From a virus, in IMG/VR virus record IMGVR_UViG_3300033153_004406, positions 1 through 45,468 of that record: a stretch of 45,468 nt of DNA; one strand, 5' to 3'. This document shows positions 13,427-34,818 of the stretch, piece by piece (the first letter of the stretch is position 1; each line of letters begins with the position of its first letter). Both the position numbers and the translations under genes were made by a program. The notes under the pieces were generated by a model. The model saw only the letters and a program-made list of their open reading frames with translations, did no database searches and was not told the origin of the DNA.

Positions 13427-16400
13427 CTATATTTCTATCATATAAACGCCTAGATCGGCTACTATTATTTTCGCATACGCCTCTGGGGACCATGAAGGAC
13501 TAACTGAAGCACTCTCTGAGGCCGAGGCGCTTGAGGATGGGGAAATCGAAGCACTGGGTGACAACGATGTACTAGCTGAACTACTTGGAGAAATAGAAGC
13601 GCTTGGCGAGATGCTAGCACTACTTGAAACAGATGGAGACACCGACGCCGATGGTGAAATAGAAGCACTCTCGCTAACGCTAGGCGATAGAGAGGTTGAC
13701 TCAGATACAGAGGGGCTAATACTAGCACTAGGAGAAATTGATGCAGAAGCACTGCTCGACGGTGAGACCGAGGCCGATTCTGAAACGCTAGGACTTATAG
13801 AGGCGGATGGAGATACACTAGCTGATTCTGAAACACTAGGGGAGATAGAGGCACTTTCAGAGCTTGAGGGGCTCAACGAAGCAGAGGGACTCACACTGGC
13901 ACTATCTGAAACAGAGGGACTTATCGAAGCGCTGGGCGATATAGAGGCACTTTCACTAGAGGAAGGAGAGATACTAGCACTCTCAGAAATAGAGGGGGAA
14001 ATAGAGGCTGAAGGCGAAACACTAGCACTAGCTGAACTGGAAGGACTTATTGAAACGCTGGGACTAACACTAGCGCTCTCGGACACAGAAGGCGATAAAG
14101 ATGCACTAGCTGAGCCCGAGGGAGAAATACTAGCAGACTCACTGACTGATGGGCTAACACTAGCTGATGGTGATATAGAAACCGACTCACTGGCACTAGG
14201 AGAAACAGAGGCTGATGGGCTTAAACTAGCGCTCTCTGATACTGAAGGGCTGATAGATGCCGATGGAGATATTGAAGCCGATTCACTACTACTGGGGCTG
14301 AGTGAGGCACTTGCAGAAACACTGGGACTCAAAGAAGCACTGGGCGAAATAGACGCCGATTCTGAAATAGATGGACTCAAACTGGCACTGGGACTTATAG
14401 AAGCTGATTCAGATACCGATGGAGATATTGAAGAACTAGGACTAACTGAAGCAGATTCTGAAGCACTTGGTGAAAGAGACGCACTACTACTTACAGACGG
14501 AGATATTGAAGCACTAGGAGACACAGAAGAGCTTTCAGATACAGAGGGACTTATACTTGCACTAGGCGATATAGAAGCACTCTCGCTAACTGAGGGGCTT
14601 AAGCTAGCGGATGGGCTTAACGAGGCTGATTCTGATGAACTCGGTGATATCGAAGCGCTACTAGAAACAGACGGACTTAAAGAAGCACTAGGACTTACTG
14701 AGGCAGACTCACTAACACTAGGAGATAACGAAGCCGATTCAGATATACTAGGACTTATGCTGGAGCTGGGTGAAATACTGGCTGACTCCGAAGAACTTGG
14801 AGACACACTAGCTGATTCAGACACACTGGGACTAAGAGAAGCCGAGGGCGATATCGACGGACTAGGGCTTATCGATTCAGAACCAGCCGAAAGAGAAGCT
14901 GAAGGACTAATCGAAGCACTCTCTGATATAGACGCACTAGGACTAATCGAAGCACTTTCTGATACTGATGGTGATGTGGATGCCGAGGGGCTGATAGAAG
15001 AACTAGGCGAGATGCTAGCTGACTCCGAAGATGATGGTGACAGAGAAGTATACCAAATAGTTTGGATCTCTACTTTACTAACAGTAGCACCAGTAGTGGG
15101 GGCTGTAAGAGTGGCCAGAATGGTACCTTCGTAATCACCATCCTCGTAAATATACCCGTACACATGGTCGTCAAAGAAGGGGGCACCACCCGCTATCCAG
15201 AACAGCATTAATTCTAACCCCTGTACAACAGGCCAATCCCAACCTCCCGCAGGAGCATTTACTGTGAAATAACTACTCCACTGATCGCCGTCATGAATCC
15301 TAGCTTTTACTACATCAATAGGATCGCCGGATCCCGGAGCATTGGTACCATCAACCCTCAATTGATTAGAAGACCCCTCTCCCAAACAAGTAACAGTGGC
15401 TGTGGCGTCTGTATCTACAGTTCCATCATCTACATTAGTTTCATTGTTCCAAGTATTGTCTGAGTCTGTGGGCCCACCATCAGAAGAATCAAAGTAATAA
15501 ACACCGCTCTCAGGGCTATCGGAAGAAGAGGGGCTTATAGATGCTGAGGGTGATAGAGAGGCAGACTCCGAAACAGAGGGACTCGTTGAAGCACTTGGCG
15601 ATATAGAGGCGCTTTCAGATATTGAAGCACTCGGTGACAGAGAAGCACTCTCTGATACGGATGGGCTTATAGACGCTGAGGGGCTTAGAGAGGCGCTCTC
15701 AGAAACTGATGGTGATATAGAAGCACTCGGTGAAACAGAAGCGCTTTCACTCACTGATGGAGAAATAGACGCTGATTCGCTAACACTGGGAGAAAGAGAC
15801 GCTGAAGGACTCAAACTGGCACTCTCGCTTACTGAGGGTGAGATAGACGCACTATCGCTCACAGAAGGAGACAGAGAGGCAGAAGGACTTAAACTAGAAC
15901 TATCACTCACTGACGGACTAATAGAAGCTGACGGACTAATAGAAGAGGACTCACTAACACTTGGTGAAAGGGAAGCGCTGGGCGATATAGAGGCACTTTC
16001 ACTCACAGACGGGCTTAAGCTGGATGAGGGTGAAATAGAGGCGCTTTCTGAAATACTTGGGCTGATACTAGCTGATTCACTTACACTAGGAGAGAGAGAT
16101 GCACTCGGTGATATAGAAGCAGACTCACTAACTGAAGGTGATAAAGAGGCTGATTCACTAACCGAGGGACTTATACTAGACGAAGGAGATATTGATGCTG
16201 ATTCACTAACAGACGGCGATAAACTAGCACTTTCTGACACAGAGGGACTCAAGCTAGCAGACGGTGATATTGAGGCCGACTCTGACACTGATGGAGAAAT
16301 ACTCGCACTAGGACTTATAGAAGCACTTTCTGAGACTGACGGGCTTGTTGAAGCACTTTCACTAACCGAGGGTGAAAGAGAAGCAGATGGAGAAATACTG

Positions 16401-19400
16401 GCCGACTCACTAACGCTAGGAGAAATGCTAGCACTCTCGGACACCGATGGTGAAATACTAGCTGATGGCGATATTGACGCACTTTCAGATACTGAGGGGC
16501 TGATAGAAGCACTCTCACTCACGGAGGGTGAAAGAGAAGCAGATGGTGAGATCGATGCGGACTCAGAGACCGAAGGGCTGATGGAAGCAGAAGGACTTAT
16601 ACTTGCGCTTTCCGACACTGATGGAGAAATACTTGTACTCTCACTGACTGATGGACTAATGCTAGCTGATGGTGAGATAGATGCGCTTTCAGAAACACTA
16701 GGACTGATAGACGCACTTTCGCTGACTGATGGCGAAATAGAAGCTGATGGTGATATAGACGCCGATTCTGATACTGATGGACTAAGGCTAGCGCTCTCGG
16801 ATACTGAAGGACTGATAGAAGCACTTGGACTAATGGATGCTGATTCGCTTACACTTGGCGATATTGAGGCGCTAGGAGAGATAGAAGCACTTTCGCTGAC
16901 TGATGGTGAAAGAGAGGCTGAGTCACTAACAGAAGGACTCAAACTGGTCGAGGGGGAGATAGAAGCACTCTCACTCACTGATGGTGAGATTGATGCCGAC
17001 TCACTTACCGAAGGGCTCAAACTAGACGAGGGTGAGATTGATGCACTCTCCGATACTGAAGGAGAGATGCTGACAGACTCAGACACACTTGGTGATAACG
17101 ACGAACTAGGGCTTATTGAGGCACTATCACTAACACTGGGTGAAACAGATGCTGAGGGGCTCAGAGAGGCGCTCTCAGACACAGAGGGGCTTATACTGGA
17201 GCTGGGGCTGAGTGACGAACTTTCGCTCACAGAGGGGCTTATAGAGGCACTGGCCGAAACAAAGTCAGACTCAGACGAAGAAGGAGAAATGGAGGCGCTT
17301 GGTGAAATACTAGCTGACTCTGAAACTGAGGGTGAAAGAGAGGCAGAGGGGCTTATGCTAGCGCTCTCAGATACCGAGGGGCTTAAAGAAGCGCTTGGGG
17401 AAATAGAGGCTGATTCTGAGATAGATGGCGATAAAGATGCCGAAGAACTTACTGACGGACTCAGACTAGCCGACGGTGAGATTGAAGCTGATTCACTAGA
17501 GCTAGGACTTATAGAAGCACTATCACTGATCGAGGGAGATATAGAAGCACTGGGTGAAATACTAGCACTCTCTGAGGAAGATGGAGATATGCTGGCGCTT
17601 TCTGATACCGAGGGCGAAACTGATGCGCTGGGGCTGAGAGAAGCAGACTCCGACACGCTAGGAGAAGTAGATGCACTAGGCGAGATGCTAGCGCTCTCAC
17701 TGACTGACGGGGATATACTAGCGCTGGGGGAAATAGAGGCACTCTCAGATACTGAAGGACTTAACGAAGAGCTGGGTGAAATTGACGCTGACTCACTGCT
17801 TGAAGGGGATATAGAGGCCGATTCACTAATAGACGGAGATATTGAGGCTGACGGTGAGATGCTGGCTGATTCACTCACAGAAGGAGAAATAGAAGCACTT
17901 GGGCTCAAACTAGCTGATTCTGAAACACTAGGGCTGGTTGATGCCGAGGGACTAATAGACGCCGATTCTGAAACAGATGGCGATATTGAGGCAGACTCCG
18001 AAACTGACGGGCTGATAGAAGCACTAGGACTTATTGAGGCGCTTTCAGATACCGAGGGGCTGATTGATGCACTAGGCGAGATAGAAGCTGATTCACTAGA
18101 ACTGGGTGAGAGACTGGCAGAAGCACTCGAAGAGGGTGAAGTGCTAGCTGAGGGCGAGATTGAAGCAGATTCTGATACAGACGGACTAATACTAGCCGAA
18201 GGACTTATAGATGCTGATTCGCTAACTGATGGGCTAATAGATGCTGAAGGAGATATAGAGGCGCTTTCGCTAACCGAGGGGCTTGTGCTGGATGACGGTG
18301 ATATTGAAGCACTAGCTGACGAGCTGGGTGAGGTTGAAGCAGATTCTGAAACGCTAGGTGATGTAGAAGCTGACGGTGAAATACTAGCGGAAGCCGAAGA
18401 ACTAGGAGAGGTGGAAGCGCTTTCGCTAACAGAGGGCGACAAAGAAGCACTGGCACTGGAACTTGGAGATGTTGATGACGAGGGACTTATACTGGCAGAC
18501 TCTGACAAAGAGGGAGATGTAGAAGCTGATTCACTGACTGAAGGGCTAATACTAGCACTTGCAGAACTAGATGGAGAAACACTAGCACTAGGAGAAACCG
18601 AGGGGCTAGGAGATATAGAAGCAGAGGGAGCATCAGCACTTAAAGTAAAAGACCTAGTAGTAGCCCAATCACTCCAAGTATCACTACCACCGGGATCTTT
18701 AGCCCTTACTCTCCAATAGTAATCATCAGCACTAAGAGCATCACCTGCTTGGACTGTATAATCAGCCTTATCCTCGTCATCAAACGGATGAGTATCACCA
18801 CCATCGGTAGTGTTGGTAAATGTAGCATCCTCGTCTTCTGAGTTTTTGTTGAGAAGAGGATGATCACCCAAAAGGTAAAAACATGCATCGGCAGTATTAT
18901 CTGGCACATAAAAATGTCCAATACTGAAAATAAGTTTGCACATATTACCGCTGTGGGTGGGAGAAGAACCATCATACCCAGCAAGCACATAATTAGAGAC
19001 ATCCCCATCCATGTACTCGAAAGCCACTATATAATCAGTGTTGCCATCCGTTGTATAAGGGGTATCAAAGGTAAGTTCTATGAGCTGGTAGGAAGTAGTT
19101 AAGGCACTTACATCGTATGTAACCGAAGCCAGAGCGTTTGTACCCTCCGAATAAGCAGAATAAGAGCTATCACCATACACACCACCGTGGGGATAGATGT
19201 AGGCCATACCATTACCCGTGGGTAGACCACTTTTCTTTAAATAAAATTTACACCCCGTAACATCACCACCCGTACCATGAAACGACTGGCAAATACCAGC
19301 CCCTTCGACAGAGGCACCCCACATAGTTACATCAGAATCCTGGTTACTCTCGGAGTAACTGTCCATAGTACCAGTTTGGTCATGAAAAGTACTAGCAGTG

Positions 19401-20173
19401 TCTACCTGGATCTGGTACTCGACCTCCTGGTCTTCTGGGTCATCACCAGTAAACTCAAAAGTAGGCGTTGTGTCTGAGATAGTAGCTAAATCGTTAGGAT
19501 AGTTTAATACTGTTGTTGGTGTACGATCAGCCCGAATCTCTAAAGCAGATAACACCCAGAGAGTATCCGCATCAGTATCGGTGTAGTTCATTGTCTGGGC
19601 AGTAGTGTCTACAGCGTCTACGTACTGAGAAGCATGAGTATCACTACCAACATCAGTCTTGTGTATCTTTTCGTGGGCCTCAACAATCTTAGATCCATCT
19701 GATTCACCAGATACCAGAGAATCAACTATATAGGAGTCATTGTAAGAGGGGGTTATTGAAAGGGTAGGAGCGGTATTGTTACCCTCAGCTGATTGGATAG
19801 CACCTGTAGGAGAAGCAGCATAAACCCCACTCATAACAGCTCCACCAGCCGATACATCGGTACACTTACCGCCCATTGTTACTGTAACTGCCTTACCAGA
19901 AGCAACCGTTGGATTAGCTAAATACCATATTTCAACACGAAAGTCCTCACCATCATCATGAGTACACCCGTCTACACGGGTAAAGGTCTCATTCTCTCCA
20001 GCAGCATCCCAAACAACACCATTATTAGCAACAGTCCTGTCAGATACAGAAGAATCAGTGGCCTGTACCGTACATACAAGGAGGTTGTCAGCAGCTCCTA
20101 CTGTTACGTTGAGAACATCTACACTAGAAGCAGAAGCCGTCCTCCCCCTAACTGAATTTACACTAATCGCCAT
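13427..20173 (-). CDS. Giant serine-rich repeat virion protein, mucin-like (2248 aa)
   Basis: Residues 1-510 are folded, beta-rich sequence. About 225-505 holds a fibronectin-like domain ([20 protein letters not shown] at one end, [19 protein letters not shown] at the other) interrupted by another beta domain. Residues about 511-1552 are SPSxSxSPSxSES-type repeats. About 1553-1709 is a second folded island ([20 protein letters not shown] onward). Repeats resume to about 2225, and a short hydrophobic tail ends the chain. No protease or sortase motif and no signal peptide is seen, so it is a virion protein rather than a secreted one. It is probably a long, flexible tail or capsid appendage. It adjoins the glycan island, so O-glycosylation of its serines is an attractive inference. 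The start ATG at 20173 has only a weak AAAG upstream. Confidence 0.85.
13494..15046 (-). repeat. C-terminal SPSxS repeat block of the giant protein
   Basis: About 515 codons of units built on SESASxSPSASxSPSV with Ile, Leu, Val or Thr in the x position. The basic period is 10 codons (30 bases), often doubled to 16. Serine and proline codons vary from unit to unit, so the DNA repeat is much less exact than the protein repeat. The opposite strand is free of stops over long stretches as a by-product. Confidence 0.9.
15516..18641 (-). repeat. Central SPSxS repeat block of the giant protein
   Basis: About 1040 codons of the same Ser/Pro/Ala/Glu repeat, the longest repeat tract in the window. A folded, non-repetitive island at about 15047-15515 separates it from the other block. 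Occasional units break the pattern (for example a DFVSAS unit near the middle), giving landmarks for alignment. Confidence 0.9.
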
Positions 20174-20178
20174 AATCT

Positions 20179-20541: not shown

Positions 20542-20571
20542 AGACCTCCCCAATAATAATCACTTAATTGA

Positions 20572-20600
20572 TGTATAAGGGAAGTTATTTTTCGTGTCCA
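20572..20600 (-). promoter_or_regulatory. Promoter of the TTGACACGAAA class with a normal leader
   Basis: TGGACA (20595-20600) followed by CGAAAAA, 17-nt spacer, and TATACA (20572-20577). The predicted start near 20565 gives a leader of about 24 nt carrying GGGGAGGT before the ATG at 20541. This is the only member of the class with a separate ribosome-binding site. It probably drives the cysteine-rich protein and the giant repeat protein. Confidence 0.68.
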
Positions 20601-22225
20601 ATACTGTGCATTAATTCGGCAGTGTTGCCCCAATCAGGAACCTCAATAGCCTCTGTCCAGCCTTCGGTGTATATTTTGTTCCTGAACTGATCCTTACGCC
20701 ATCTATTGGGAGTAAGATTCTTGTCATGTCTTATATCGATATTAGGAAACTCTGAAGCCCATGCCTCAGCTGTCTTCTCATGAGTACCTGGCTCAAACCC
20801 CATACCACGTTTGTACCCAACCTCTTTAACCAAATCAACCCTACGTTTGTATTCTTCTATTAGAAGCTTTCTATTAGCACACAGCCCAGAGGTCTGCTTC
20901 CAATCATCGGCTCTTAGAGCGTGGCCGTCTTCGTACCTAACCTTCCAAACATTAGTGTTGTAGTAAAATGTGTCATCCTTTGGTGGAGTAAAATCAAAGT
21001 GAGAAGCGTGATACAAACAATCATGCTCACAAAAGAATATATATTTGGCGGTACTATTCTCTAAAGCCCCAAGAATCTGCGTGAACATTGCCAGATGCCC
21101 CTTCTTAAGACTGGGGAAAACAATGTTCTTACCAAAGTTTATTTTCTTAAGCGAAGATGACACAATAGGCAACCCAACCCGACTGATTTGGCTCTGACAA
21201 GCATTTAGAATGCTCTCATCAAGACTGTTATCGGTGTAGTAGATTATACCTTTACTAGACCCCATCTCAGCTAGATCCTCATTTTCCCAGCGTGCTTCCT
21301 CATCCCTAACATCTTTTAAAGCAAACCAGAACTTGTCTAACAACCAGTGCAGGGGGTGGACCTGTTTCTTCCACTTGTTATTAAGAAACACGTCTCTAGA
21401 TATCTTCCTGGCTCTCTGTTGTGATTTACCCACACCAGGGTAGGGATGGCTGAACCCAGGCTGTGTCCTAAACAGGTGTGCATACCAGGTATCCCGGTTA
21501 CAAAGCACCCTACCACCGGATAACCACGTCTTTAAAGCAACCTCAGTACCTTGCTGACCCCAGCTACCCCACGATTCGTCGCACAACTCAATCTCCCAGT
21601 ACTTCTCCCTAGTACAGAGAAAGCACGATCCCTGCAAACTCATGGTTTCCACTAGCCCCTTCTTGTCCTGTTTCTTGCGTAATTCTGGGAAGTACTTAAA
21701 CTGTAGGTTCTTATTAAACCTGTAAGCAGAGCTTTGTGGATTTGTTTTGGGGTTCCATATCATATCCTTCTTGAAATTAGACTCAACCCCACCACCGTGC
21801 TCGTTAAAATTACAGGTCTCGTTGCGGCACTTCTCTGGATCAGGTCCCTGGTACACCCTCATCCCACAGGTATTACATACCCAATCGAACACATGGAGGT
21901 TACGCATTACTGGTACCATTGTAATGTCATCTTCCATTACTGACATCATTTTAACGTCAAAGCCTTGGTCAAAGGCACAGTGAGCATCAACCTTCATTAT
22001 GTACCTGGCTGTTGAAGTTCTGGCTGCCTGGTTCATGGCGGCCCGCTGGCCTATGCTCTCTTCGTTATGTATAACCCTAACCCTTGGATCTTTAACTACA
22101 TCAGTAAACCAACCATCAAGAACAACAATAACCTCAGTATTACCCTCTATGTGCTCAATAAGGTCTTCTACTGTTCTATTTAAAAACTCTTCATTCCTTG
22201 ACGGAATCAGTATCGACAGATCCAT
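20585..22225 (-). CDS. Two-domain glycosyltransferase: GT2/GT27-like plus a second sugar-transfer domain (546 aa)
   Basis: Residues 1-310 are a GT-A glycosyltransferase: LSILIPSRNEEFLNRTVEDL at the start, a DGWF loop, and D80-A-H82-C in VDAHCAFDQGFD. The Asp-x-His metal motif, not Asp-x-Asp, recalls polypeptide GalNAc-transferases. A Cys-x-x-Cys pair (CNTCG and later CRNETC) inside the domain suggests a zinc knuckle. Residues 330-546 form a second domain homologous to the next upstream protein (22191-22907), as judged by IIYYTDN, DLGKN or NFGKN, and a YIFFCEHDCLYHASHFD / YVATAEDDALYAPGYFD match. It is the last gene of the glycan island, next to the serine-repeat protein. Confidence 0.82.
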   Translation of the reverse strand: MDLSILIPSRNEEFLNRTVEDLIEHIEGNTEVIVVLDGWFTDVVKDPRVRVIHNEESIGQRAAMNQAARTSTARYIMKVDAHCAFDQGFDVKMMSVMEDDITMVPVMRNLHVFDWVCNTCGMRVYQGPDPEKCRNETCNFNEHGGGVESNFKKDMIWNPKTNPQSSAYRFNKNLQFKYFPELRKKQDKKGLVETMSLQGSCFLCTREKYWEIELCDESWGSWGQQGTEVALKTWLSGGRVLCNRDTWYAHLFRTQPGFSHPYPGVGKSQQRARKISRDVFLNNKWKKQVHPLHWLLDKFWFALKDVRDEEARWENEDLAEMGSSKGIIYYTDNSLDESILNACQSQISRVGLPIVSSSLKKINFGKNIVFPSLKKGHLAMFTQILGALENSTAKYIFFCEHDCLYHASHFDFTPPKDDTFYYNTNVWKVRYEDGHALRADDWKQTSGLCANRKLLIEEYKRRVDLVKEVGYKRGMGFEPGTHEKTAEAWASEFPNIDIRHDKNLTPNRWRKDQFRNKIYTEGWTEAIEVPDWGNTAELMHSIGHEK

Positions 22226-25118: not shown

Positions 25119-25720
25119 ACTAGGTGAAAACTACTCCTTTCGTTTCTAACCCAAGACCCCTCAAATAGCTCTTCTTCCTCGTGGTTCCTTATAAACCCGC
25201 TATCCTCAAACCTTTTAATCCACCAATCCTTGTCTTTCTTAGTGACGTGATAATCCACCTTACCGTCCTTACTAGGGCAATCTTTGTTAGAAACACTAAC
25301 AACAAAACTACCACAGCAGTTATCCTTAACGTTATCAAACAACGTCTCAAGGCTCTCCTCTGGTATGTGCTCCATTACCTCCCAAGCGGTTACATACCCA
25401 AACTTAACATTAAACTTAAACGGCCTTGTTATGTCGCACAAAAACAACTTGTCTGGAACAGTGGCCCACTCAGACCATTTGTAGTTAAAGTAATGCGGGC
25501 TCCCTTCCACACCAACCGCTGGTATACCATTATCATTACAATCCTTTACAAACTTACCACCACCACATCCAAGGTCTAGCAATCCCCACCTATGCTCACC
25601 TAGCTTCTCTATAAACCCAAGGTTAGTAGACTTGTCAGGAATGTTCTTATACGGCTCTGGATGGGTGTACTCAAGAGACTTTATAGCTACTGGATTCTTA
25701 GTGTTTAAAGTATATTGCAT
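25106..25720 (-). CDS. Class I methyltransferase (204 aa)
   Basis: LLDLGCGGGKFVKDC at residues 47-61 is the glycine-rich SAM loop; VGVEGS and LCDITRPFK follow as acidic and adenine-contact motifs, and YVTAWEVMEHIPEE is the post-II motif. The protein is of the Methyltransf_11/23 type. It overlaps the downstream gene by 13 bases. The substrate is unknown; context suggests a glycan precursor. Confidence 0.83.
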   Translation of the reverse strand: MQYTLNTKNPVAIKSLEYTHPEPYKNIPDKSTNLGFIEKLGEHRWGLLDLGCGGGKFVKDCNDNGIPAVGVEGSPHYFNYKWSEWATVPDKLFLCDITRPFKFNVKFGYVTAWEVMEHIPEESLETLFDNVKDNCCGSFVVSVSNKDCPSKDGKVDYHVTKKDKDWWIKRFEDSGFIRNHEEEELFEGSWVRNERSSFHLVWTL

Positions 25721-26184
25721 GGTTCAAAGTTACTTAACACTGTAGTACGGGGCCTCAGATCATCGTCGTACCTAAACTTAAACGATGGATAAATATCACT
25801 GTAATGGTACTGATCGTCATTTGCCTCCTCTGAATCATGGATTACTACAAACCTGGCATAGTTTGCTAACCTAGAGATCTCTACCTTACGCCTCTCAGCG
25901 GGTGCGTGGTCTACAAACGCCACACCCCAATTAGTCTGTATCCTTATCTTGTTCCAATCCTTAACAAGGTGGATCTCGTGCTCAGAAGACTTAAAGCTCT
26001 TTATTGCTTTGTAGTAATCCTCGTTACTCTCGTAGGAGACTAACTTACGGTCTGGATAGCACATCCAGTGCAACACAGGGGTACTAAACGCACCAGTACC
26101 CAACTCAACCACATCACCGTCAGTACGGGAAACAGCCGCCATAAGGAGCGGCATATGGGTACTATGATTTCTGCTTAGCCTCAT
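25705..26184 (-). CDS. Small methyltransferase-like protein (159 aa)
   Basis: The chain starts with a helix, then VVELGTGAFSTPVLH (SAM loop-like), LVSYESNEDYY (acidic motif II-like), and WGVAFVDHAPAERRKVEI, a pattern seen in short class I methyltransferases acting on sugars or small molecules. VIHDSEEAND near the end resembles a metal or acid/base site. It is short for the fold and lacks the last strands. The start at 26184 is chosen because it overlaps the preceding gene; an ATG ten codons later is also possible. Confidence 0.68.
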   Translation of the reverse strand: MRLSRNHSTHMPLLMAAVSRTDGDVVELGTGAFSTPVLHWMCYPDRKLVSYESNEDYYKAIKSFKSSEHEIHLVKDWNKIRIQTNWGVAFVDHAPAERRKVEISRLANYARFVVIHDSEEANDDQYHYSDIYPSFKFRYDDDLRPRTTVLSNFEPCNIL

Positions 26185-27058
26185 GTTCCGCCCATTGTTT
26201 TTCCCAGTCCTCAGGCCACCCAGGTATGGGCCAGAACCGTTCTATTAAGTATGATAAGTCGTGCTTCCTGTCTTCCCAACGATTGTTCATGAAATAATCA
26301 CAAGAATAAGCATTACCACGCCTGAGGGGTCTTCTGTCTATGAAATATCCACGACCCCACTTCTTACCCTTATGCAGATGTGCGTACCAAGTCTTCTTGT
26401 TAACAACAGTCCTACCACCACCAAGCCAGTACTTAATACCAATCTCCTGTGGTTCAGCGATAAAAGTCTCAAACCCCTCTTCTTGCATAGGATAGATGTT
26501 GTCCATGAAATATTTTCTGTTAGCGAACCAACAGGATCCCTGGAACGACATCTCGTCATCAATCTCATACTCAGGCTTGTCTTTTCTACTACGTGCTCTC
26601 TCGTTCCAAACCCTACCATGAAGACCAGGCCTCTCTTTAGGTCTAACATCTAAAGGAAAACTAAGGTAGTGGTAATCTACCCTAGACTTGCCTGTATTAG
26701 CTATCTCCCACTTATCATCATCGGCTAATAAACTGTACCTAGAAGGAATAACCAACCAATCCTCCTCACAATCAGCTGCCAACTTAACATCAAACCCCTG
26801 GTCAAACATACAGTGTGCGTCACACTTCATAACATGTTCGCCCGTAGCCGCCTCAACAGCAAGGTTAATGCCGTTCCTCAACCCACCTGGTTTGTCTGGG
26901 TGTATATACTTGATGCGGGGGTCTTCCATAACCTCATCAGGCCACTTCTCGTCTATTACAGCAATTATCTCAAGATCGCCCTCTGCTTTCTCGAAGATGT
27001 CCCGCATTGTTCTATTAAGAAACCTCTCATTGCGTGACGGTATAAGTACCGATAACAT
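26162..27058 (-). CDS. Glycosyltransferase, GT2/GT27-like (298 aa)
   Basis: A close paralogue of residues 1-310 of the 546-aa transferase: SVLIPSRNERFLNRTMRDIF at the start, D80-A-H82-C in CDAHCMFDQGFD, MSFQGSCWFANRKYF and a KTWYAHLHKG region. The Asp-x-His pair at the same residue numbers suggests a common, Mn-dependent mechanism. It lacks both the zinc knuckle and the C-terminal domain of its relative. The glycan island continues on both sides. This is the second candidate to initiate O-glycosylation of a polypeptide. Confidence 0.8.
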   Translation of the reverse strand: MLSVLIPSRNERFLNRTMRDIFEKAEGDLEIIAVIDEKWPDEVMEDPRIKYIHPDKPGGLRNGINLAVEAATGEHVMKCDAHCMFDQGFDVKLAADCEEDWLVIPSRYSLLADDDKWEIANTGKSRVDYHYLSFPLDVRPKERPGLHGRVWNERARSRKDKPEYEIDDEMSFQGSCWFANRKYFMDNIYPMQEEGFETFIAEPQEIGIKYWLGGGRTVVNKKTWYAHLHKGKKWGRGYFIDRRPLRRGNAYSCDYFMNNRWEDRKHDLSYLIERFWPIPGWPEDWEKQWAEHEAKQKS

Positions 27059-27067
27059 GAAAACCTC

Positions 27068-27433
27068 CTATGAATATGATAACACTGATAAATCTGTTGC
27101 CACGTTGTCGAAGTCACTGTCCCCATCAGCCCACGTTATAACCGCTCCAGTGGTCTGATCTATCTTCATGGCCTGCCACACATCCGATGCCTGTGCTGAA
27201 CCCACTGCCCCTATAGCTACGTAGGTTACATCTCCATCCTCAGTAACCTTGTAAGCGTAGTTCTTGTCAGTGGTCTGCAATACACCGCTTTCGTCAGTCC
27301 TTATCCTTTGTAGATTAGTACCGTCATACCCCAAGACCTCAACAGCGTACTGTCTGAACGTTCTATCGAACGAATCACTCGCCATCTGGTCAGGGCTAAA
27401 CTTATGCTGGTCTACGGGCCTTCTTATTGCCAT
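27068..27433 (-). CDS. Small hypothetical protein inside the glycan island (121 aa)
   Basis: I do not recognise it. The chain is mixed, with DSFDRTFRQYAVEVLGYDG, a beta-rich middle (YAYKVTEDGDVTYVAIG) and a Trp-containing end. Its composition resembles virion or tail proteins rather than enzymes. GAGGAAGGT precedes the ATG at 27433. It overlaps the gene before it by 10 bases, and both sit between glycosyltransferase genes. Confidence 0.55.
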   Translation of the reverse strand: MAIRRPVDQHKFSPDQMASDSFDRTFRQYAVEVLGYDGTNLQRIRTDESGVLQTTDKNYAYKVTEDGDVTYVAIGAVGSAQASDVWQAMKIDQTTGAVITWADGDSDFDNVATDLSVLSYS

Positions 27434-27936
27434 ACCTTCCTCTTTTCCATCTCATCATAAATAAACTTATTCATATCCTTAGAGCTATTCATCCGTGCTA
27501 GTTTCATAAACAAAGACCGTTTCTGGCTAGAATCCTCTATAAACCCTAGATCCCTCCAACCACGTACTACTCCACTAATACGGTCTATAATGGCGTAGGG
27601 TTCAACCCCGTCATCCATATCCATCCCGCCCATAATCTCATCGAACACCTTCTCGAAGTTACCAAAGGTAGGCTTAAGCTTCCTGTTATCGATTACATCC
27701 TTGATGTACCTACCGATATCAGAGATCTTATTCCTATCAGCTCCGTCTATATGATCTAACGGCTCCTCGATACCCAGAGAATCTAGAACAGGATCTATAC
27801 CCCTCGCTTCCAAAACATCTAGCGGCTCAAGATCGGGGTAATCCTTAGCCGTATCGCTACTGTCTATATCGTGGTCAGGTACCGGCAAACCAGGCTCATC
27901 AGCGGCTGGTACTGCAGGTGTTTTATACGCCTCCAT
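27424..27936 (-). CDS. Hypothetical acidic protein (170 aa)
   Basis: An acidic, Pro- and Asp-rich N-terminus (PAADEPGLPVPDHDIDSSD) is followed by a helical domain with DRNKISDIGRYIKDVIDNRK and IIDRISGVVRGWRDLGF. It has no enzymatic motif and no membrane segment. AAGGAGAAGCT precedes the ATG. It and its neighbour interrupt the sugar genes and could be virion proteins transcribed with them. Confidence 0.55.
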   Translation of the reverse strand: MEAYKTPAVPAADEPGLPVPDHDIDSSDTAKDYPDLEPLDVLEARGIDPVLDSLGIEEPLDHIDGADRNKISDIGRYIKDVIDNRKLKPTFGNFEKVFDEIMGGMDMDDGVEPYAIIDRISGVVRGWRDLGFIEDSSQKRSLFMKLARMNSSKDMNKFIYDEMEKRKVWQ

Positions 27937-27945
27937 AGCTTCTCC

Positions 27946-28947
27946 TTACACTGATTTTATCTTCGTGGCAAGCTTGTATGCTTTATCCCACAACCGGATA
28001 TTGTGCCTAAGATCATAGTGTGTCTTAACATGGCTGTAGGCGTTCTCAACAATATCCTTACGAAGAGTCTTTATTCTTATAAGGTTCCTTAAAGCCAAGA
28101 ACCACTGTTCGTCTGTATCAGCTACCAACCCGAACGTAGAGTCAAACCCACGGTAGTTGTATACAGTAGGCGAGTAAACAGCTGGTACCTTAGCAATAGC
28201 ATACTCAAGGAACTTAATATTACTCTTAGCCTTGTTAAAGGGAGTGTTCCTAAGCGGGGCTACTCCTACATCAAGCCTCATTGAATGTAACTTAGCTGGA
28301 TAAGCATCAAAAGGTACCCCTAACATACACTCATGGGGCAAGCCCTCTAATACAGAAGACCACCTAGGATCACCACAAGTAACAAAAGTAACGTTTTTAA
28401 ACTCCTTATACAACCTCCTAAACGCCGTTCTAACGATCTTAAAATCCTCTAAGTGAGTAATACTACCGGAGTAACCCACACGAATCTTATCCGACTCATT
28501 CTTATACTTAGGAAGATCCCACCTAGTTATATCCATTGAATTGGCCAAAGCAAATGTATTCTTGTTAAAAGTCTTTAAATACTCAGCCAAATAAGGGGTG
28601 GTGGTTGTCACCATATTAGCCATTCTCAACACAACTGGTATAGTGTTGATAGCATCCGCAACCTCGTGTTCCTTAGCGTGGGGATTATCATCATTAATAT
28701 CCAAACCATCATCACAGTCAGCTACTACAGTCAGACCTTTCTCCATTTGATAAGCCCTTATTAGGGCTATCCCCGCTTTATCCACAACTGACTGGAGGAC
28801 AACCACATCTGCGTAGTTTATAACTTCCTCAGTGATACCGCTCTCACAAACAAGAGCATCATGTCCCAAAGCCCGTAAATGCTTGAAAGGATCCACAATC
28901 CTCCAATACTTAGATCCACTGGCGTTACCGAACCCTATTATTCGCAT
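27946..28947 (-). CDS. GT-B glycosyltransferase, GT4-like (333 aa)
   Basis: The N-terminal half has a Rossmann-like start (RIIGFGNASGSKYWRIVDP) and a TTTTPYLAEYLKTF acceptor-side motif. The C-terminal half has IRVGYSGSITHLEDF, a GVPFDAYPAKLHSMRLDVGVAPL stretch (cited by its core DVGVAPL) and NIKFLEYAIAKVPAV, the E-x(n)-E-like donor site of GT4 enzymes. It would transfer a nucleotide-activated sugar, keeping the linkage stereochemistry. GGAGGTAGT precedes the ATG, and the gene overlaps the upstream deacetylase-like gene by 10 bases. Confidence 0.82.
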   Translation of the reverse strand: MRIIGFGNASGSKYWRIVDPFKHLRALGHDALVCESGITEEVINYADVVVLQSVVDKAGIALIRAYQMEKGLTVVADCDDGLDINDDNPHAKEHEVADAINTIPVVLRMANMVTTTTPYLAEYLKTFNKNTFALANSMDITRWDLPKYKNESDKIRVGYSGSITHLEDFKIVRTAFRRLYKEFKNVTFVTCGDPRWSSVLEGLPHECMLGVPFDAYPAKLHSMRLDVGVAPLRNTPFNKAKSNIKFLEYAIAKVPAVYSPTVYNYRGFDSTFGLVADTDEQWFLALRNLIRIKTLRKDIVENAYSHVKTHYDLRHNIRLWDKAYKLATKIKSV

Positions 28948-29561
28948 ACTACCTCCGATACAAACACAAACTCAGCGTCTCTAGGAATCTTCATGAGGTT
29001 AACCATACAACCTTCTAAATTATTGTACTCTGGAAATGTCATATGTCCGTGTAAACCATAAAAATCTTTCTCTTCCTTCCAGAACTCGTCATAAATTGTG
29101 TCAGTGTACTCGTAGTACTTTTTAGTCTTTAACATATCAGCATGATTAGGATTAACCGCACCAAACCAACCTTTCTCGTCCAAAACAGAAATCACATCCT
29201 CATTCCACAACCAGTTAGGTGCCTTGAAACCTTTCACATATTTGATCCCCTGAGTCTCTAGGATCGTCTCTATGGCACGTAACGACTCTAAGGTGGCCTC
29301 TCTATCAGCTTTCTCAAATTCTGGGTAAGAATGTGTTAGTCCGTGGGGTATTATCTCTATCCAGTCCTGATTCTCCTTAAGCATCTTCAACCTAGAACCA
29401 AAATTAATCATCAAAACACTATTACTCTCTGTTTCGTGGTCGTAGGGTATCCAGAACAGGCTAACCTTTAGCTTAGGATAGTGTTCTTTTAGTTTTAGCA
29501 GGAGATCCCAACGGGTTCTTAGAATAGACCCATCATCGATATCTAGGCAGATTCTTGGCAC
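28938..29561 (-). CDS. Polysaccharide deacetylase-like protein, NodB/DUF2334 type (207 aa)
   Basis: CLDIDDGS at the start is the metal-binding Asp-Asp motif, HGLTHSY supplies the H-x(3)-H pair and GFKAPNWLWN resembles the deacetylase R-x-P-W/Y motif. LHGHM near the end could be the final catalytic His. Such enzymes remove N-acetyl groups from sugars. I choose the GTG at 29559-29561, which has GGGAGG upstream at 4 nt; a TTG four codons earlier is possible but would need an unseen site. It overlaps the RGP-like gene's end by 19 bases. Confidence 0.7.
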   Translation of the reverse strand: MPRICLDIDDGSILRTRWDLLLKLKEHYPKLKVSLFWIPYDHETESNSVLMINFGSRLKMLKENQDWIEIIPHGLTHSYPEFEKADREATLESLRAIETILETQGIKYVKGFKAPNWLWNEDVISVLDEKGWFGAVNPNHADMLKTKKYYEYTDTIYDEFWKEEKDFYGLHGHMTFPEYNNLEGCMVNLMKIPRDAEFVFVSEVVCE

Positions 29562-30433
29562 AGGGCCTCCCAACGTTTCATCTTCTCGTTGTAGATATCA
29601 AAGAACGGATCACTCTCGTCACCAGACCAGTAGGTTTCATTCAACTCAATGAAGAACGCCTCTTTCTTGAGGTTAGACCACACGTTAGAAGCCCTTGTAT
29701 GGTAAACAGTTGAGTACCCTGTAACAGCAGCCCATCCGTGTTCATCTATCTTCCTTTTAACGTTAATCCCGCAAAAGATATCATCACACCTCTCTATACC
29801 CCGCTCAACATCCTGGGGTGATAGATACATATAAGGAAGTACCTTACGCTTGAACGCAATGTTCATCTCACAGAACGGGAAGTAGATACCCTTAGGAATG
29901 GGTTGTTTAAAGAACTTCATAGGATGCCCACCCCTTACTAACTGTGTTGGAGCGTCTAGATCAGGTACGTTATCCCACACACCATGAGAAACAACCACTT
30001 CAGCCTCTTCTCTAACATCGTAAGGAAACCCACGAGTATAGGTATCACCCACAGCCATCCAACTAATAGGCGCCCTAGTATTGAGTATATCTATGTGATC
30101 CTGGATGCTATCACCAACTGGCTCTACATCATCGTCTAAAGATATAATGTACTCAACCTCTGGCATTTGTGTTGCTATATAGAAGAACCCAACGTTCTTG
30201 ATACTAGCGTTTCTGTTATATATAAGGTCTATGTTCTTACCCATTACATCCTTGATACCAACAGAGCAAGTTTCGTCTTTAGTGCGTACATCGAGAACTA
30301 TCTTCTCTTTATCAGCATGGTCAAACACTGTTAACAAAGCAACATCGTGCTTCGTAAACAAATCCCGCCAGGCTGGTAGGAATGTTTTTTTGTATAAATC
30401 TGGCCTACATGTTGGTACTACTACAGCAATCAT
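29543..30433 (-). CDS. Reversibly glycosylated polypeptide family (UDP-arabinopyranose mutase-like, GT75)
   Basis: Several blocks match plant RGP/UAM proteins in order: SLDDDVEP (Asp-Asp-Asp at 100-102), RGFPYDVR at 134-141, VVSHGVWDNVPDLDAPTQLV at 148-166, PIPKGIYFPFCEMNIAF at about 178-193, RCDDIFCG, and HTRASNVWSNLKKE. Plant members convert UDP-L-arabinopyranose to the furanose form and glycosylate themselves on an arginine in the R-x-x-x-x-x-R block, which is present here. This would furnish a furanose sugar nucleotide for the island. AGGAGGAGAT precedes the ATG. I am confident of the family, less so of the exact sugar. Confidence 0.85.
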   Translation of the reverse strand: MIAVVVPTCRPDLYKKTFLPAWRDLFTKHDVALLTVFDHADKEKIVLDVRTKDETCSVGIKDVMGKNIDLIYNRNASIKNVGFFYIATQMPEVEYIISLDDDVEPVGDSIQDHIDILNTRAPISWMAVGDTYTRGFPYDVREEAEVVVSHGVWDNVPDLDAPTQLVRGGHPMKFFKQPIPKGIYFPFCEMNIAFKRKVLPYMYLSPQDVERGIERCDDIFCGINVKRKIDEHGWAAVTGYSTVYHTRASNVWSNLKKEAFFIELNETYWSGDESDPFFDIYNEKMKRWEALCQESA

Positions 30434-30441
30434 ATCTCCTC

Positions 30442-31413
30442 CTATGTGAATAATAAACTACTACCAAAGCCTTCAAACTCAAACGGCACCCTCTTCAACT
30501 CCAGGCTCTGCTCTACCTGATCCTGCTTGTCTTTTGGAACACTGAACAACATGAACCCACCACCACCAGCGCCCAATACCTTACCACCAGTAGCCCCAGC
30601 GGCCTTAGCCTGGGTATACCAACCATCTATTTTACGATTAGATATACCAGAAGCTAGATCCCTCTTTAATAACCAAGCCTTGTCCATAATCGACCCAACA
30701 TCCTCTATATTCCCCAACTCTAGTGAGACCGCCATATCATAGGCTAAACCAACCATCTTATCCATACTCTCCCTAACCTCAGGATCAGACCCTATGTTTG
30801 AAACCTGTTTCTTTAGGATTGGAGAAGCCTTGCGCACAACACCCGTATAAAACAGCATCAGGTTATCATTAAAAGCTTCTAACACACCGTTAGGCAGCCT
30901 TAAAAGACTAACCGATACACCTTTGTTACTAAACTCGTAAAGGTTGAGACCACCAAACGCTGCTGCATACTGATCCTGCTTACCAACTGGCTGGTCACAT
31001 CTATTTATCTCAATAGTACACGCTGTCTCAGCCAACCCCTCACGGCTATAAAACTTGTCAGAATACGCTGATAAGGCTGTTAACAACCCAACCGTATAGG
31101 CACTAGAAGATCCTAAACCAGTACCCTCTGAAGGTATGTCGGATACCGAGGTTATCTCTATACCAGACTCAATACCGTACGCCTCTAAAGCGTTTCTTAT
31201 CAGATCATGCTTAATACCTGAACTGTTATCTGCATACTCAACCCTAGAATAAGCCACCCTTATATTGTCATCAAACTTGGGATTAACGGTTATATATATG
31301 TACTTATCTATAGTCGTGGACAAACACGCACCCACAGAATCCTTGTAATAGGCCTCTATATCGGTTCCTCCCCCAGCAAAGCTTATTCTAACTGGTGTCC
31401 GGGATACAATCAT
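30442..31413 (-). CDS. hddA: GHMP kinase, heptose-7-phosphate kinase-like (323 aa)
   Basis: RTPVRISFAGGGTD at residues 5-18 is the family's N-terminal motif, EGTGLGSSSA at 96-105 is the ATP-binding loop, and GGKVLGAGGGGFMLF is the C-terminal motif 3. The length and these motifs agree best with HddA, which phosphorylates D-glycero-D-manno-heptose 7-phosphate at C1. The gene follows the GmhA-like isomerase with an ATGA overlap, the two first steps of GDP-heptose synthesis. GmhB phosphatase and HddC are not in the window, so the host must supply them or the substrate differs. Confidence 0.83.
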   Translation of the reverse strand: MIVSRTPVRISFAGGGTDIEAYYKDSVGACLSTTIDKYIYITVNPKFDDNIRVAYSRVEYADNSSGIKHDLIRNALEAYGIESGIEITSVSDIPSEGTGLGSSSAYTVGLLTALSAYSDKFYSREGLAETACTIEINRCDQPVGKQDQYAAAFGGLNLYEFSNKGVSVSLLRLPNGVLEAFNDNLMLFYTGVVRKASPILKKQVSNIGSDPEVRESMDKMVGLAYDMAVSLELGNIEDVGSIMDKAWLLKRDLASGISNRKIDGWYTQAKAAGATGGKVLGAGGGGFMLFSVPKDKQDQVEQSLELKRVPFEFEGFGSSLLFT

Positions 31414-31811
31414 TTCAATGCTTCCTTTATCTCATGACATATAACAAGATGCTCATTCTCTATCTCTTCGTAACTACCACCATCACCAAAGTAAGTGATG
31501 ATATGCATACCTATATCATTCGCTGTCTCTAAAGCCTTAAGTATGTTGGGAGATGTACCACTACACGAGAATACTACCAACAAATCACACGGCTCAGCCA
31601 TAACATCCAGCTGCTTACTAAACACTTGGTCATAACCAAAGTCATTAGCTAACATAGTCATTATCGACGTATTACTATTCAAACACACTGCACCAGCCCC
31701 GCATGAAAACAGGTCGTTGCTGAAGTGTTCAGCTGTACTAGCGCTACCACCGTTACCAGCAGTGAATACCCACCCACCATCCTCTATAACGTCCTTGTAT
31801 ACATCAATCAT
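31410..31811 (-). CDS. gmhA: SIS-domain isomerase, sedoheptulose-7-phosphate isomerase-like, short form (133 aa)
   Basis: GNGGSASTAEHFSNDL from residue 19 is the signature of GmhA, the isomerase making D-glycero-D-manno-heptose 7-phosphate from sedoheptulose 7-phosphate; FSCSGTSPNILKAL is the second phosphate-binding loop. At 133 residues it is clearly shorter than the usual 190 or so, lacking most N-terminal helices that help form the tetramer. The essential loops remain, so it is probably a compact active form. It overlaps both neighbours, the downstream one as ATGA. Confidence 0.78.
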   Translation of the reverse strand: MIDVYKDVIEDGGWVFTAGNGGSASTAEHFSNDLFSCGAGAVCLNSNTSIMTMLANDFGYDQVFSKQLDVMAEPCDLLVVFSCSGTSPNILKALETANDIGMHIITYFGDGGSYEEIENEHLVICHEIKEALK

Positions 31812-32811
31812 TTAACCACCTCACCGAGTTATTAATCTTCAACCTATCAAAATCTTTCAGCAAATCTTCCACCCTACCGTACACAACTATATGCTTCATA
31901 CCACTAAGCCAGTATGGGTCTGTTAGTAGGTGGGTATAAGGCTGCTCCTCTTTAACAACCTTAATCCAGCCAGCCTCGTAGTCCTTTGTTGCATACCTAT
32001 TTATTAAGGTAACCTTGAATCCAGGATTCTTGGCCTTGTACTCCACCAAATACTGGAGATAGCGCAAACTTATTCCGGATGCCTCTAATAGTAGTTTTAC
32101 TGTATCACCACCATACTCATACCCAGAACCATTAACCTTCTTCATGTACCTGACCATGTTATCGGGAGTACTGTCTTTTGTGGGATGGTCCACATGGTAC
32201 ACCTTTACGTTATTATATAAATACAGCGCCGCACCGTTCATCTTAGCCCGCATAGCGGTGTCATAGTCATCAATACCGTATCCAGGGTACTTCTCGTCTA
32301 TCCAGCCAATCCTTTCCATAATAAACCTAGTTGTAACCATCCCATTACCGGGAAATGCCTGCCAACCCATAAAGGTACTGTTCATTTCTCTAACATCCTC
32401 GGATTCTTCTAGTCTATAGTCATTACTAAGAAAAGTACCGTCTAACTTGACGTTTATTCGATAAGACGCCCCGAAGCTATTAATTACATATGTATCTGAT
32501 ATCCTTTTAAGAGCATCACCGCCTAGCCAGGTATCACCAAACACCAGTATAAACACACCCTCCTCAGCTAACTGCATACACTTGTTCATCTTAGCCACAA
32601 TCAGCTGCTTATCGTCATGAACGCCGTATATGATCTTACAGGGGATACTGCCCTCAACTGTCTCCTTAAGCCACTCTACTGTACCATCAGTACTCTCGTC
32701 ATCAAACACAACCCATTCCTCCAGATACTCTTTCTGGTCCAGGATAGATTGATAGAGATTCTTAAGGCTTGGTAGCTGGTTATAAGTAACAGTTAAAACA
32801 CTAATCTTCAT
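31804..32811 (-). CDS. GT2 family glycosyltransferase (335 aa)
   Basis: ISVLTVTYNQLPSLKNLYQS and WVVFDDESTDGTVEWLK are the GT-A nucleotide-binding start, and FGDTWLGGDAL holds the metal-binding acidic spot in place of a clear Asp-x-Asp. YGIDDYDTAMRAK is the acceptor-side ED-type motif, and a helical C-terminus follows. I take the ATG at 32809-32811, which forms an ATGA overlap with the methyltransferase stop; a longer frame upstream would lie inside that gene. Confidence 0.83.
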   Translation of the reverse strand: MKISVLTVTYNQLPSLKNLYQSILDQKEYLEEWVVFDDESTDGTVEWLKETVEGSIPCKIIYGVHDDKQLIVAKMNKCMQLAEEGVFILVFGDTWLGGDALKRISDTYVINSFGASYRINVKLDGTFLSNDYRLEESEDVREMNSTFMGWQAFPGNGMVTTRFIMERIGWIDEKYPGYGIDDYDTAMRAKMNGAALYLYNNVKVYHVDHPTKDSTPDNMVRYMKKVNGSGYEYGGDTVKLLLEASGISLRYLQYLVEYKAKNPGFKVTLINRYATKDYEAGWIKVVKEEQPYTHLLTDPYWLSGMKHIVVYGRVEDLLKDFDRLKINNSVRWLND

Positions 32812-33440
32812 TTGGTAGCCCTCACAAATATTGTATCTATAGTGCCTGGAGGAATATTCCAAGAAACACTGCCATCATCATACTTTCTATAAACACCACG
32901 AGAAGAAGCCATGGTTATAACGTGTACATCAGCAAAATACTTATAAAACATCTTCTTAATATCTTCTACCTCAAAGGACCACATATGCTGGGGGCTAGGA
33001 GCAAGATTCCTCCAAGGGGTTGTTAGCAAAGCAGTACCACTTCTGCCAAGAACCCTGCTCATTTCACGTACCATCTCCTCTGGCTTATCCAGATGTTCCA
33101 GTACTTCAACAGAAACAGCGTAATCAAAGTAATCATCAGGCATAGGCACGTCAGAAACATCGCCTACCATGAACTGGGCCTGAGGAACCCTATCCCTAGC
33201 CTTATTTATCCCCTCTTCGCTATAATCAATGCCATATAGTTCACCATGGTCTTCCCTAGAAACATTTATGGCCTCAAGTAGAAAACCACGCCCACAGCCG
33301 AAGTCTACTACAGACTTATCCGGCAGCACTTGATGAGCTACTAATAGGTTAAGAAACACGGACCAAGACCTATCAGGAGAGTCAACATACTGCTCATCCC
33401 AATGCTCAGGAGTATTATTTACCTTTGTTAGTCTTTTCAT
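32808..33440 (-). CDS. Class I methyltransferase (210 aa)
   Basis: SVVDFGCGRGFLLEA at residues 43-57 is the SAM loop; GIDYSEEGI, VGDVSDVPMPDDYFD and VSVEVLEHLDKPEE are motifs II to post-II of Methyltransf_11 enzymes. LTTPWRN follows. I start at the ATG at 33438-33440, 26 bases before the end of the overlapping upstream gene; the 24 extra residues of the longer frame are basic and antisense-like. It belongs to the glycan operon, and a sugar substrate is likely but unproven. Confidence 0.82.
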   Translation of the reverse strand: MKRLTKVNNTPEHWDEQYVDSPDRSWSVFLNLLVAHQVLPDKSVVDFGCGRGFLLEAINVSREDHGELYGIDYSEEGINKARDRVPQAQFMVGDVSDVPMPDDYFDYAVSVEVLEHLDKPEEMVREMSRVLGRSGTALLTTPWRNLAPSPQHMWSFEVEDIKKMFYKYFADVHVITMASSRGVYRKYDDGSVSWNIPPGTIDTIFVRATK

Positions 33441-34818
33441 AGCTATCAATCTTCTCCTGTTTACGCCTCTCAAAGTATTTCTTAAACTTCTTAATCTGCT
33501 CCTCAGTACCATAACAATGTTCGGCCTGGTAGTTCTCTAGATACCCCATATCATAGCCGTTGTTAAGGAGATACTTGGAAAACTCAAGGTCCTGCACACC
33601 ATGCATAGGCTGGGTCTCATCCCACTTAAAATCATCATAAGCACTCGCACCCACGAAGTGACATATACCGCCCAAATGCCTAGTTAAACCTATCAACTGT
33701 TTGTTTATAAACCCATAAGCATACCTCTCAGCCCCGCCAGGGGTACCCCTAAGCCCAGAGATGTAGGTGGACAAGGATACTAGTCTGTTCCTCTTCCATA
33801 TCTCTACCATCTCTTTCAACCAACCACTACTCTGGAACAAGCAGTCATTGTCTACCTTAACTATAATGTCGTAATCAAAACTCTTGATAGTCTTAATGAT
33901 CTCGTTAGAGGCTATAGATATTCCTTTATTATCACCGCTGTAGGTGACATGCTTGAAATCACCCTTCTCTAGATACTTTACTGTACCGTCTCTACTGCCG
34001 TTATCGTATACAAAGTGGTCGTAAGAATACTCAGCCGTCTCCTTGAGGCTAGCGAAGCACTTCTTTGTCATCTCTAACCTATCGTAAGTAAGACTAAACA
34101 CAGCTACCTTAGGTTCTTCTAACTCTTTAAGGTAGGGTAGCTCTATCTCTATATCTACAGGTGTCCAAGGATACTTCTCTTCAGTAGAAGATAGCTTATC
34201 CTCACCACCTATGTAGTAGTCTGTTACTACCAGATTAACCCTTTTGAACACCTTACCCATCTTGACCATGCGTACCATGAGGTTCCAGTCAAGCATCCTA
34301 GTACTGCGTTCATCCCAACCGCCTACATCTAGTATAGCCTGCTTCTTACACAGAAAGTCTGAGGTATCTATGTAATTACGCTCTAATAGCACCCTGGGGG
34401 AAAACTCCATAGAGATACCCATACCAGCTATCTTCCCAGTCTCCTCGTCAATAACTTTCCTAACACCATAAACCAGATCAATACCATCCTCAAACCCATT
34501 AATAAGGGCCTGAAAATGGTCTTTAGTGAAAACATTGTCTGAATCTAGGTAGGCTATGTACTCACCTTCAGCCATCTTAGTGCCTATGTTCTTACCAATA
34601 GCGTGGTTCTGGGTACATTTCTTAATACGATGGTACTTAACATTATCATTATCCTCAGCTAGCTTACGTCCGTACTCCTCAGTACCATCCTTAGAGGCGT
34701 CATCTATCAATATAAGCTCCCAATCAGTGTAAGACTGTGCAAACACTGAATCAATAGCCCTTTTAAGGACATCTAGCCTACCGTTATGCGAAGTAATCAC
34801 GCAAGATATCACGCACAT
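33415..34818 (-). CDS. Tandem GT2 glycosyltransferase with two GT-A domains (467 aa)
   Basis: Two domains in one chain. Domain 1 (about residues 1-220): SCVITSHNGRLDVLKRAIDS, LILIDDASKDGTEEY, AYLDSDNVF (Asp-x-Asp), GGWDERSTRMLDWNLM. Domain 2 (about 235-467): VAVFSLTYDRLEMTKKC, VYDNGSRDGTVKYL, IVKVDNDCLFQ (Asp-x-Asp), HGVQDLEFSKYL. Both have intact metal motifs, so the protein may add two sugars in turn, as polysaccharide polymerases do. It is the first gene of the island in transcription order, after the co-chaperonin. The ATG at 34816-34818 lies 2 bases after that gene's stop with GAGG upstream. Confidence 0.85.
   Translation of the reverse strand: MCVISCVITSHNGRLDVLKRAIDSVFAQSYTDWELILIDDASKDGTEEYGRKLAEDNDNVKYHRIKKCTQNHAIGKNIGTKMAEGEYIAYLDSDNVFTKDHFQALINGFEDGIDLVYGVRKVIDEETGKIAGMGISMEFSPRVLLERNYIDTSDFLCKKQAILDVGGWDERSTRMLDWNLMVRMVKMGKVFKRVNLVVTDYYIGGEDKLSSTEEKYPWTPVDIEIELPYLKELEEPKVAVFSLTYDRLEMTKKCFASLKETAEYSYDHFVYDNGSRDGTVKYLEKGDFKHVTYSGDNKGISIASNEIIKTIKSFDYDIIVKVDNDCLFQSSGWLKEMVEIWKRNRLVSLSTYISGLRGTPGGAERYAYGFINKQLIGLTRHLGGICHFVGASAYDDFKWDETQPMHGVQDLEFSKYLLNNGYDMGYLENYQAEHCYGTEEQIKKFKKYFERRKQEKIDSYEKTNKGK

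Follow-up and report, generated by a model that had tools for sequence, protein, structure and literature searches.

The stretch of DNA analysed here, referred to as the window (45,468 nucleotides), is a 45-kb IMG/VR record, IMGVR_UViG_3300033153_004406, of a podovirus-like phage. It encodes two proteins with long tracts in which every second residue is serine, written (S-x)n, and two transferases with an Asp-x-His (DxH) motif in a GT-A domain. The relationship between these tracts and these enzymes is the subject of this analysis, and four genes are central to it.

13427-20173, minus strand: giant (S-x)n appendage protein, 2248 aa, with beta-rich N-terminal domains, four (S-x)n blocks, an internal non-repeat domain and a short C-terminus; N-domain homologues in same-lineage L131 and L127
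11504-12286, minus strand: second, smaller (S-x)n protein, 260 aa, with a 145-aa N-domain and then 55 alternate serines at its end
20585-22225, minus strand: long DxH transferase, 546 aa, with a DxH GT-A domain (DAH 80-82, WYAHLFR 247-253) and a C-terminal domain
26162-27058, minus strand: short DxH transferase, 298 aa, with a GT27-like catalytic domain; candidate initiating polypeptide O-glycosyltransferase

A Strict Serine Register

The 2248-aa protein has beta-rich domains at residues 1-512 and a non-repeat internal domain at residues 1554-1709. A strict S-x-S-x register runs through residues 517-969, 973-1553, 1710-1762 and 1765-2229, with 227, 291, 27 and 233 alternate serines, respectively. 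The total of 1552 aa agrees with an earlier note on this DNA, which had described about 1550 residues of repeat in this protein; the 260-aa protein was absent from that note. The x residues include P (185), A (175), I (116), V (96), E (89), L (48) and S (40), and the prolines are spaced by 10 or 6 residues. The longest unbroken run has 291 alternate serines; in 1000 random reorderings of a sequence with this composition, none was longer than 24. The C-terminus is without LPXTG. The N-terminal 512 aa gave no informative fold match (predicted local distance difference test score, pLDDT, of the model 67.4), so no receptor-binding role is claimed for the appendage.

Long low-complexity regions are prone to misassembly, and long antisense open reading frames overlap the repeat. 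That the serine repeat is an artefact at the level of DNA or assembly is nevertheless a practically negligible explanation. All six serine codons are present and mixed, 291 serines follow one another without a break in the register, and roughly a hundred further contigs show the (S-x)n design with differing x residues. Tandem-repeat matches at the DNA level (63%-100%) form short arrays in the repeat gene. Together with the mixed codons, this indicates that the pattern is kept at the protein level and is no DNA microsatellite.

The DxH Transferases Resemble Polypeptide GalNAc-Transferases

Asp-Ala-His occupies exactly residues 80-82 in both enzymes, as had been noted earlier. An alignment of the family, first of 62 rows and then corrected to 38 clean rows, shows that D80, H82 and W224-Y225-A226-H227 are invariant among the 38 members. 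The top PDB matches of the family profile are polypeptide GalNAc-transferases over the full domain (6s22, E 1.4e-11), with the same or stronger matches from the 38-row alignment, and both the DxH motif and the C-terminal histidine are aligned to the GalNAc-transferase motifs. The long enzyme alone gave 14 PDB matches, all of them GalNAc-transferases or Toxoplasma GalNAc-T3 (best E 9e-8), spanning the C-terminal half of the catalytic domain. The AlphaFold model of the DxH enzyme (pLDDT 94.8) retrieved GalNAc-transferases throughout the top 50 Foldseek matches. In VIA-align 2, the listed GalNAc-transferase entries reached Z scores of 23.8-26.9, compared with at most 18.9 for any other glycosyltransferase. 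The likeness to this enzyme class, suggested earlier from the motif, is thus borne out by profile, PDB and fold comparison with GT27.

The use of DxH instead of DxD is confined to specific families, among which GT27 and GT60 are named; both glycosylate Ser/Thr of polypeptides, and in GT27 the C-terminal histidine is a metal ligand (PMC7185993). Membership of GT60 was considered and not adopted, the PF11397 (GT60) match being a single weak one among the 62 family members (E 0.089). Because the lectin domain is missing, the DxH enzymes, judged from sequence and model, are best described as GT27-like and not as GT27 members.

Enzyme and Repeat Occur Together

A scan of viral contigs with the DxH transferase alone yielded 80 loci. 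SPS-type (S-x)n proteins lie in the flank of 61 of these, and three more have one elsewhere in the record. The distance between the (S-x)n gene and the DxH gene is within 300 bp in 16 and within 1 kb in 31 of the 80 loci, and the repeat gene frequently ends <100 bp before the DxH gene. Among records related through the major capsid protein (MCP) that are without a DxH enzyme, SPS-type (S-x)n was found in none of 33; one capsid relative (G027) has three DxH matches together with the repeat. The co-occurrence of transferase and repeat in related phages, which the earlier note had proposed to look for, is therefore found in most records.

In the reverse direction, a scan with the repeat DNA pattern returned 133 loci, of which 49 have alternate-serine runs, including plainly unrelated SP- and SR-repeats. 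The DxH enzyme lies inside the short locus in 16 of these 49, compared with 0 of the 84 loci without a real repeat (Fisher 2e-8, a p-value that overstates independence). Thirteen repeat-bearing records are 30 kb or longer, and the enzyme is present in 11 of them. One of the two exceptions has divergent DxHC GT2s, and the other is cut inside the repeat. Divergent GT2s with DPHC and DTHC motifs (L274:5065-5931 and 7842-8969), possibly a second DxHC group, were observed in an 84-kb record that has (S-x)n proteins as well. The sequence of a 190-kb record opens within an (S-x)n tract at least 1856 residues long (L278:1-5573); the rest of it is without a DxH enzyme.

Same-lineage phages provide a natural control for this coupling. 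G023 has the first and the second of the appendage's N-terminal domains, and G005 has the second. Neither phage has a full-length DxH enzyme, and in both the stalk consists of 'VSDTTTVTES' repeats with no (S-x)n. Homologous stalk proteins with long Thr/Ser repeats of the 'VSDTTTVTES' type replacing (S-x)n were observed in L127:12252-15377 and L131:5210-8590.

In other phages, many unrelated proteins carry an (S-x)n tract, either at the C-terminus or internally. Such tails end members of phrog_290 (minor tail protein) and phrog_78 (tail terminator), and a tract lies within members of phrog_1101 (tail protein, read here as of tail-tip type). Its occurrence on unrelated tail proteins indicates that the tract acts like a tag that can be carried from one particle protein to another.

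The Cassette in Patescibacteria

In GTDB genomes, the DxH family is found almost only in metagenome-assembled genomes (MAGs) of Patescibacteria (genomes of 0.4-1.5 Mb). An even draw gave 6 of 380 Patescibacteria genomes, a count that includes the draw centre and two already-known genomes; among 294 Planctomycetota, only the draw centre has the family. Some of the MAG loci are clearly chromosomal, and others are phage contigs (L345, L351). In a WWE3 genome (G070), FtsE/FtsX/TsaE/TsaB-like genes flank the cassette and a 2323-aa (S-x)n protein on one side and TatA/TatC-like genes on the other, and in two Woesebacteria an (S-x)n protein adjoins TatC-like genes, all gene names being read from the sequences. 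(S-x)n proteins beside TatA/TatC-like genes were observed in a WWE3 MAG (L343:2858-11257 and L308:829-5243), in L346:7344-12915 and in L353:6979-11887. Some chromosomal (S-x)n loci also have a nearby protein whose sequence includes a twin-arginine-like motif (DIDRRAFLK in L301), and the Patescibacteria (S-x)n proteins have no obvious signal peptide.

The long enzyme of the window shares 75% identity over the catalytic domain, and 62% over the full length, with an enzyme from the Microgenomates MAG Gr01-1014_16, where the long enzyme gene is followed by that of a 1312-aa (S-x)n protein. The viral and MAG sequences do not separate in the tree, where supported branches force at least 20 label changes; this tentatively suggests exchange between phages and Patescibacteria. 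MCP relatives, which are weakly informative on the host, were found in 2 of 380 Patescibacteria (35%-38% identity) and 3 of 392 Planctomycetota genomes (28%-32%). The window phage probably infects a Patescibacterium, an assignment kept tentative because of MAG binning errors and the weak capsid evidence.

The Glycan Island Consists of Two Modules

The 14-kb glycan gene set described in the earlier note is real. It extends over 20585-34830 upstream of the repeat gene and is operon-like, all genes lying on one strand with neighbours that overlap or are at most about 31 bp apart. It contains GT2/GT4-type transferases, methyltransferases, a DUF2334/polysaccharide-deacetylase-like protein, an HddA-like GHMP kinase, a GmhA-like isomerase and an RGP protein. 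Besides the two DxH enzymes, its genes are as follows.

22191-22907, minus strand: DxH-cassette protein of a putative GT-A-like ('YYTAN') family; in 54 of the 80 DxH viral loci
22904-23560, minus strand: TOD1/MUCI70-like glycosyltransferase, DxH cassette
23557-24504, minus strand: methyltransferase-like protein, DxH cassette
24486-25118, minus strand: Methyltransf_24 family enzyme, DxH cassette; in 59 of the 80 DxH viral loci
25106-25720, minus strand: Methyltransf_23-type methyltransferase; recurs in three MAG loci only
25705-26184, minus strand: small methyltransferase-like cassette protein, assigned by eye with no Pfam match; in 17 of 80 DxH viral loci and 15 of 32 MAG loci
27068-27433 and 27424-27936, minus strand: two small proteins, lineage core, not repeat-specific
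27946-28947, minus strand: GT4-like transferase (phrog_7162), lineage core, not repeat-specific
28938-29573, minus strand: deacetylase-like protein (DUF2334/NodB-like), lineage core
29543-30433, minus strand: RGP/UDP-arabinopyranose mutase family protein (PF03214, E 1.6e-31)
30442-31413, minus strand: HddA-like GHMP sugar kinase, below the NCBIfam equivalog cut-off
31410-31811, minus strand: GmhA-like SIS isomerase, shortened, 133 aa
31804-32862, minus strand: GT2 transferase, without a relative in any locus compared
32808-33512, minus strand: methyltransferase, lineage core
33415-34830, minus strand: two-domain GT2, lineage core

These genes were compared one by one with six near-complete repeat-less relatives, the 80 DxH viral loci and 32 MAG loci. 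MCP relatives were taken as controls because direct scans of viral contigs were nearly empty: none was confirmed for the GT4 at 27946 or the tail gene at 8832-10745, and one partial match was found for the GT2 at 33415. The genes at 27068-28947, 28938-29573, 32808-33512, 33415-34830 and 34820-35386 are present in most or all of the six near-complete relatives, which are without DxH enzymes and (S-x)n, and a complete circular relative, MW202801, has a similar gene set after its capsid gene. The genes at 20585-27058 are missing from all six and recur alongside DxH enzymes. The island is thus composed of a lineage-core module and a DxH cassette (20585-27058), and it is the cassette that goes with the repeat. 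The earlier proposal that the island is tied to the repeat holds for the cassette and fails for the island as a whole, given the lineage-core genes in the six repeat-less relatives. Homologues of RGP, HddA and GmhA were found in only 3-4 of the 80 DxH loci and a complete heptose pathway is not encoded, so the heptose- and furanose-containing glycan envisaged earlier is unsupported. The lineage-core module (GT4, GT2 and deacetylase) may well act on something other than the repeat.

The occurrence of these core genes without a repeat, the presence of the cassette on Patescibacteria chromosomes and the several DxH loci without an SPS-type repeat would all be expected if the cassette remodelled the host surface, for example to block superinfection, with (S-x)n an unmodified flexible spacer and the co-location due to chance or a shared host range. 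This explanation appears improbable, since the catalytic domain belongs specifically with those of polypeptide transferases, little often separates the end of the repeat gene from the DxH gene, and homologous appendages are without (S-x)n where the enzyme is missing.

Comparison with Known Systems

Mucin-type polypeptide O-glycosylation is known from animals and protists; in animals, polypeptide GalNAc-transferases are the enzymes that begin the mucin sugar chains. The DxH enzymes share with GT27 the GT-A catalytic domain, the DxH metal motif, the C-terminal metal histidine and the best full-domain matches in sequence and fold. They differ in their low identity (~18%), in being without a ricin-type lectin domain and in being prokaryotic or viral and presumably cytoplasmic. 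The serine-rich repeat proteins (SRRPs) of Gram-positive bacteria are glycoproteins with alternate-serine decapeptides such as SLSNSVSMSE and are associated with GtfA/GtfB and SecA2/Y2 (PMC6973325). The window resembles them in its alternate-serine repeat and in a gene cluster with several transferases. In contrast, its candidate initiating enzymes are GT27-like DxH transferases, and its proposed acceptor is a phage particle protein and not a wall-anchored adhesin. Pfam and NCBIfam scans found no GtfA/GtfB family among the island proteins, and no SecA2/SecY2 family match was found among the part of the window's open reading frames that was scanned. The resemblance is likely a convergent parallel.

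The passages citing Freeman et al. (2023) in PMC12363180 and PMC12619734 describe phage-encoded transferases that modify the C-termini of virion proteins in mycobacteriophages Che8, Corndog and Myrna. As in those phages, a phage-encoded transferase is linked to a virion protein, and (S-x)n tails end tail proteins in relatives. Unlike them, the window has long dedicated serine tracts as proposed acceptors, and its short enzyme has no sequence relative among 50,697 phage records (cultured phages). No earlier description of such a system was found in the open-access literature, subscription papers and preprints being outside the search.

A Proposed Self-Glycosylation Module

The serine register, the catalytic signature and fold, the coupling of enzyme and repeat, and, in other phages, the presence of such tails on genuine tail proteins are established. 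The locus is probably a module with which a podovirus-like phage, most likely infecting a Patescibacterium, glycosylates its own proteins. In the host cytoplasm, the two DxH transferases would put the first sugar on (S-x)n serines of the 2248-aa and 260-aa proteins, and companion transferases and methyltransferases of the cassette would extend and cap the glycan. The product would be a mucin-like, extended and hydrated bristle assembled onto the virion. It may serve in attachment to, or mimicry of, a host surface built by some Patescibacteria with the same cassette, or in shielding.

Several points weigh against this reading. The contigs are related and often fragmentary, and the counts are not fully independent. 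No ricin-B lectin domain was found in Pfam scans, the 298-aa protein stopping after the catalytic domain, and the island has no recognisable enzyme for making UDP-GalNAc. The presence of the 2248-aa protein in the virion is deduced from the location of its gene amid tail genes and by comparison with relatives. Enzyme and repeat occur independently in a minority of records, as the earlier note had expected if it were wrong: DxH enzymes are found in some phages that have no SPS-type repeats (L027/L033, L059, L039), and at least one segment spanning terminase to tail, L293, encodes a repeat protein and no DxH enzyme. Segment L293, from the same type of phage and with an (S-x)n appendage, has LicD-like and cytidylyltransferase-like genes (6766-8469, 10503-11822), which suggests a different decoration; a pair resembling it was observed in L027:4441-5327.

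DxH loci without SPS repeats occur in MAGs as well as in phages, and cassette repertoires vary widely. Perhaps the enzymes act on Ser/Thr of host or other virion proteins, (S-x)n being one acceptor among several and primarily a length-variable stalk. We regard this as rather unlikely in view of the large excess of (S-x)n beside the enzyme, which is not seen in lineage relatives without it.

If self-glycosylation is the correct reading, mucin-type polypeptide O-glycosylation would extend to phages and ultra-small bacteria, with acceptor and enzyme predicted from sequence. The repeat and its enzymes keep company in many unrelated phages and in tiny Patescibacteria, and together they look like a prokaryotic version of mucin glycosylation that had not been described before. 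A broader proposal could, in our judgement, go either way: that a prokaryotic mucin-type O-glycosylation, with GT27-related initiators and portable (S-x)n acceptor tails, is common to Patescibacteria surface loci and their phages, the phages coating their appendages with the glycan type that their hosts display. The system would provide a way into the study of attachment or concealment by phages of uncultured Patescibacteria. For glyco-engineering it would supply a portable serine tag and short soluble enzymes, and the ancestry of GT27 could be traced with the help of its bacterial relatives.

Other Features of the Window

A DNA-level search found no relatives. The window's remaining features are those of the phage particle and lysis.

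35488-41167, minus strand: head module of a podovirus-like phage (MCP, portal, terminase large subunit)
35488-36459: MCP
37850-39811: portal
39851-41167: terminase large subunit
8832-10745: virion structural family match, read here as tail nozzle
1842-2762: endolysin

A GroES-like protein gene (34820-35386), conserved across the lineage, lies immediately upstream of the glycosylation genes. The long antisense open frames opposite the repeat, on the plus strand at 13611-15134 and 16425-18719, are best read as a by-product of repeat composition.

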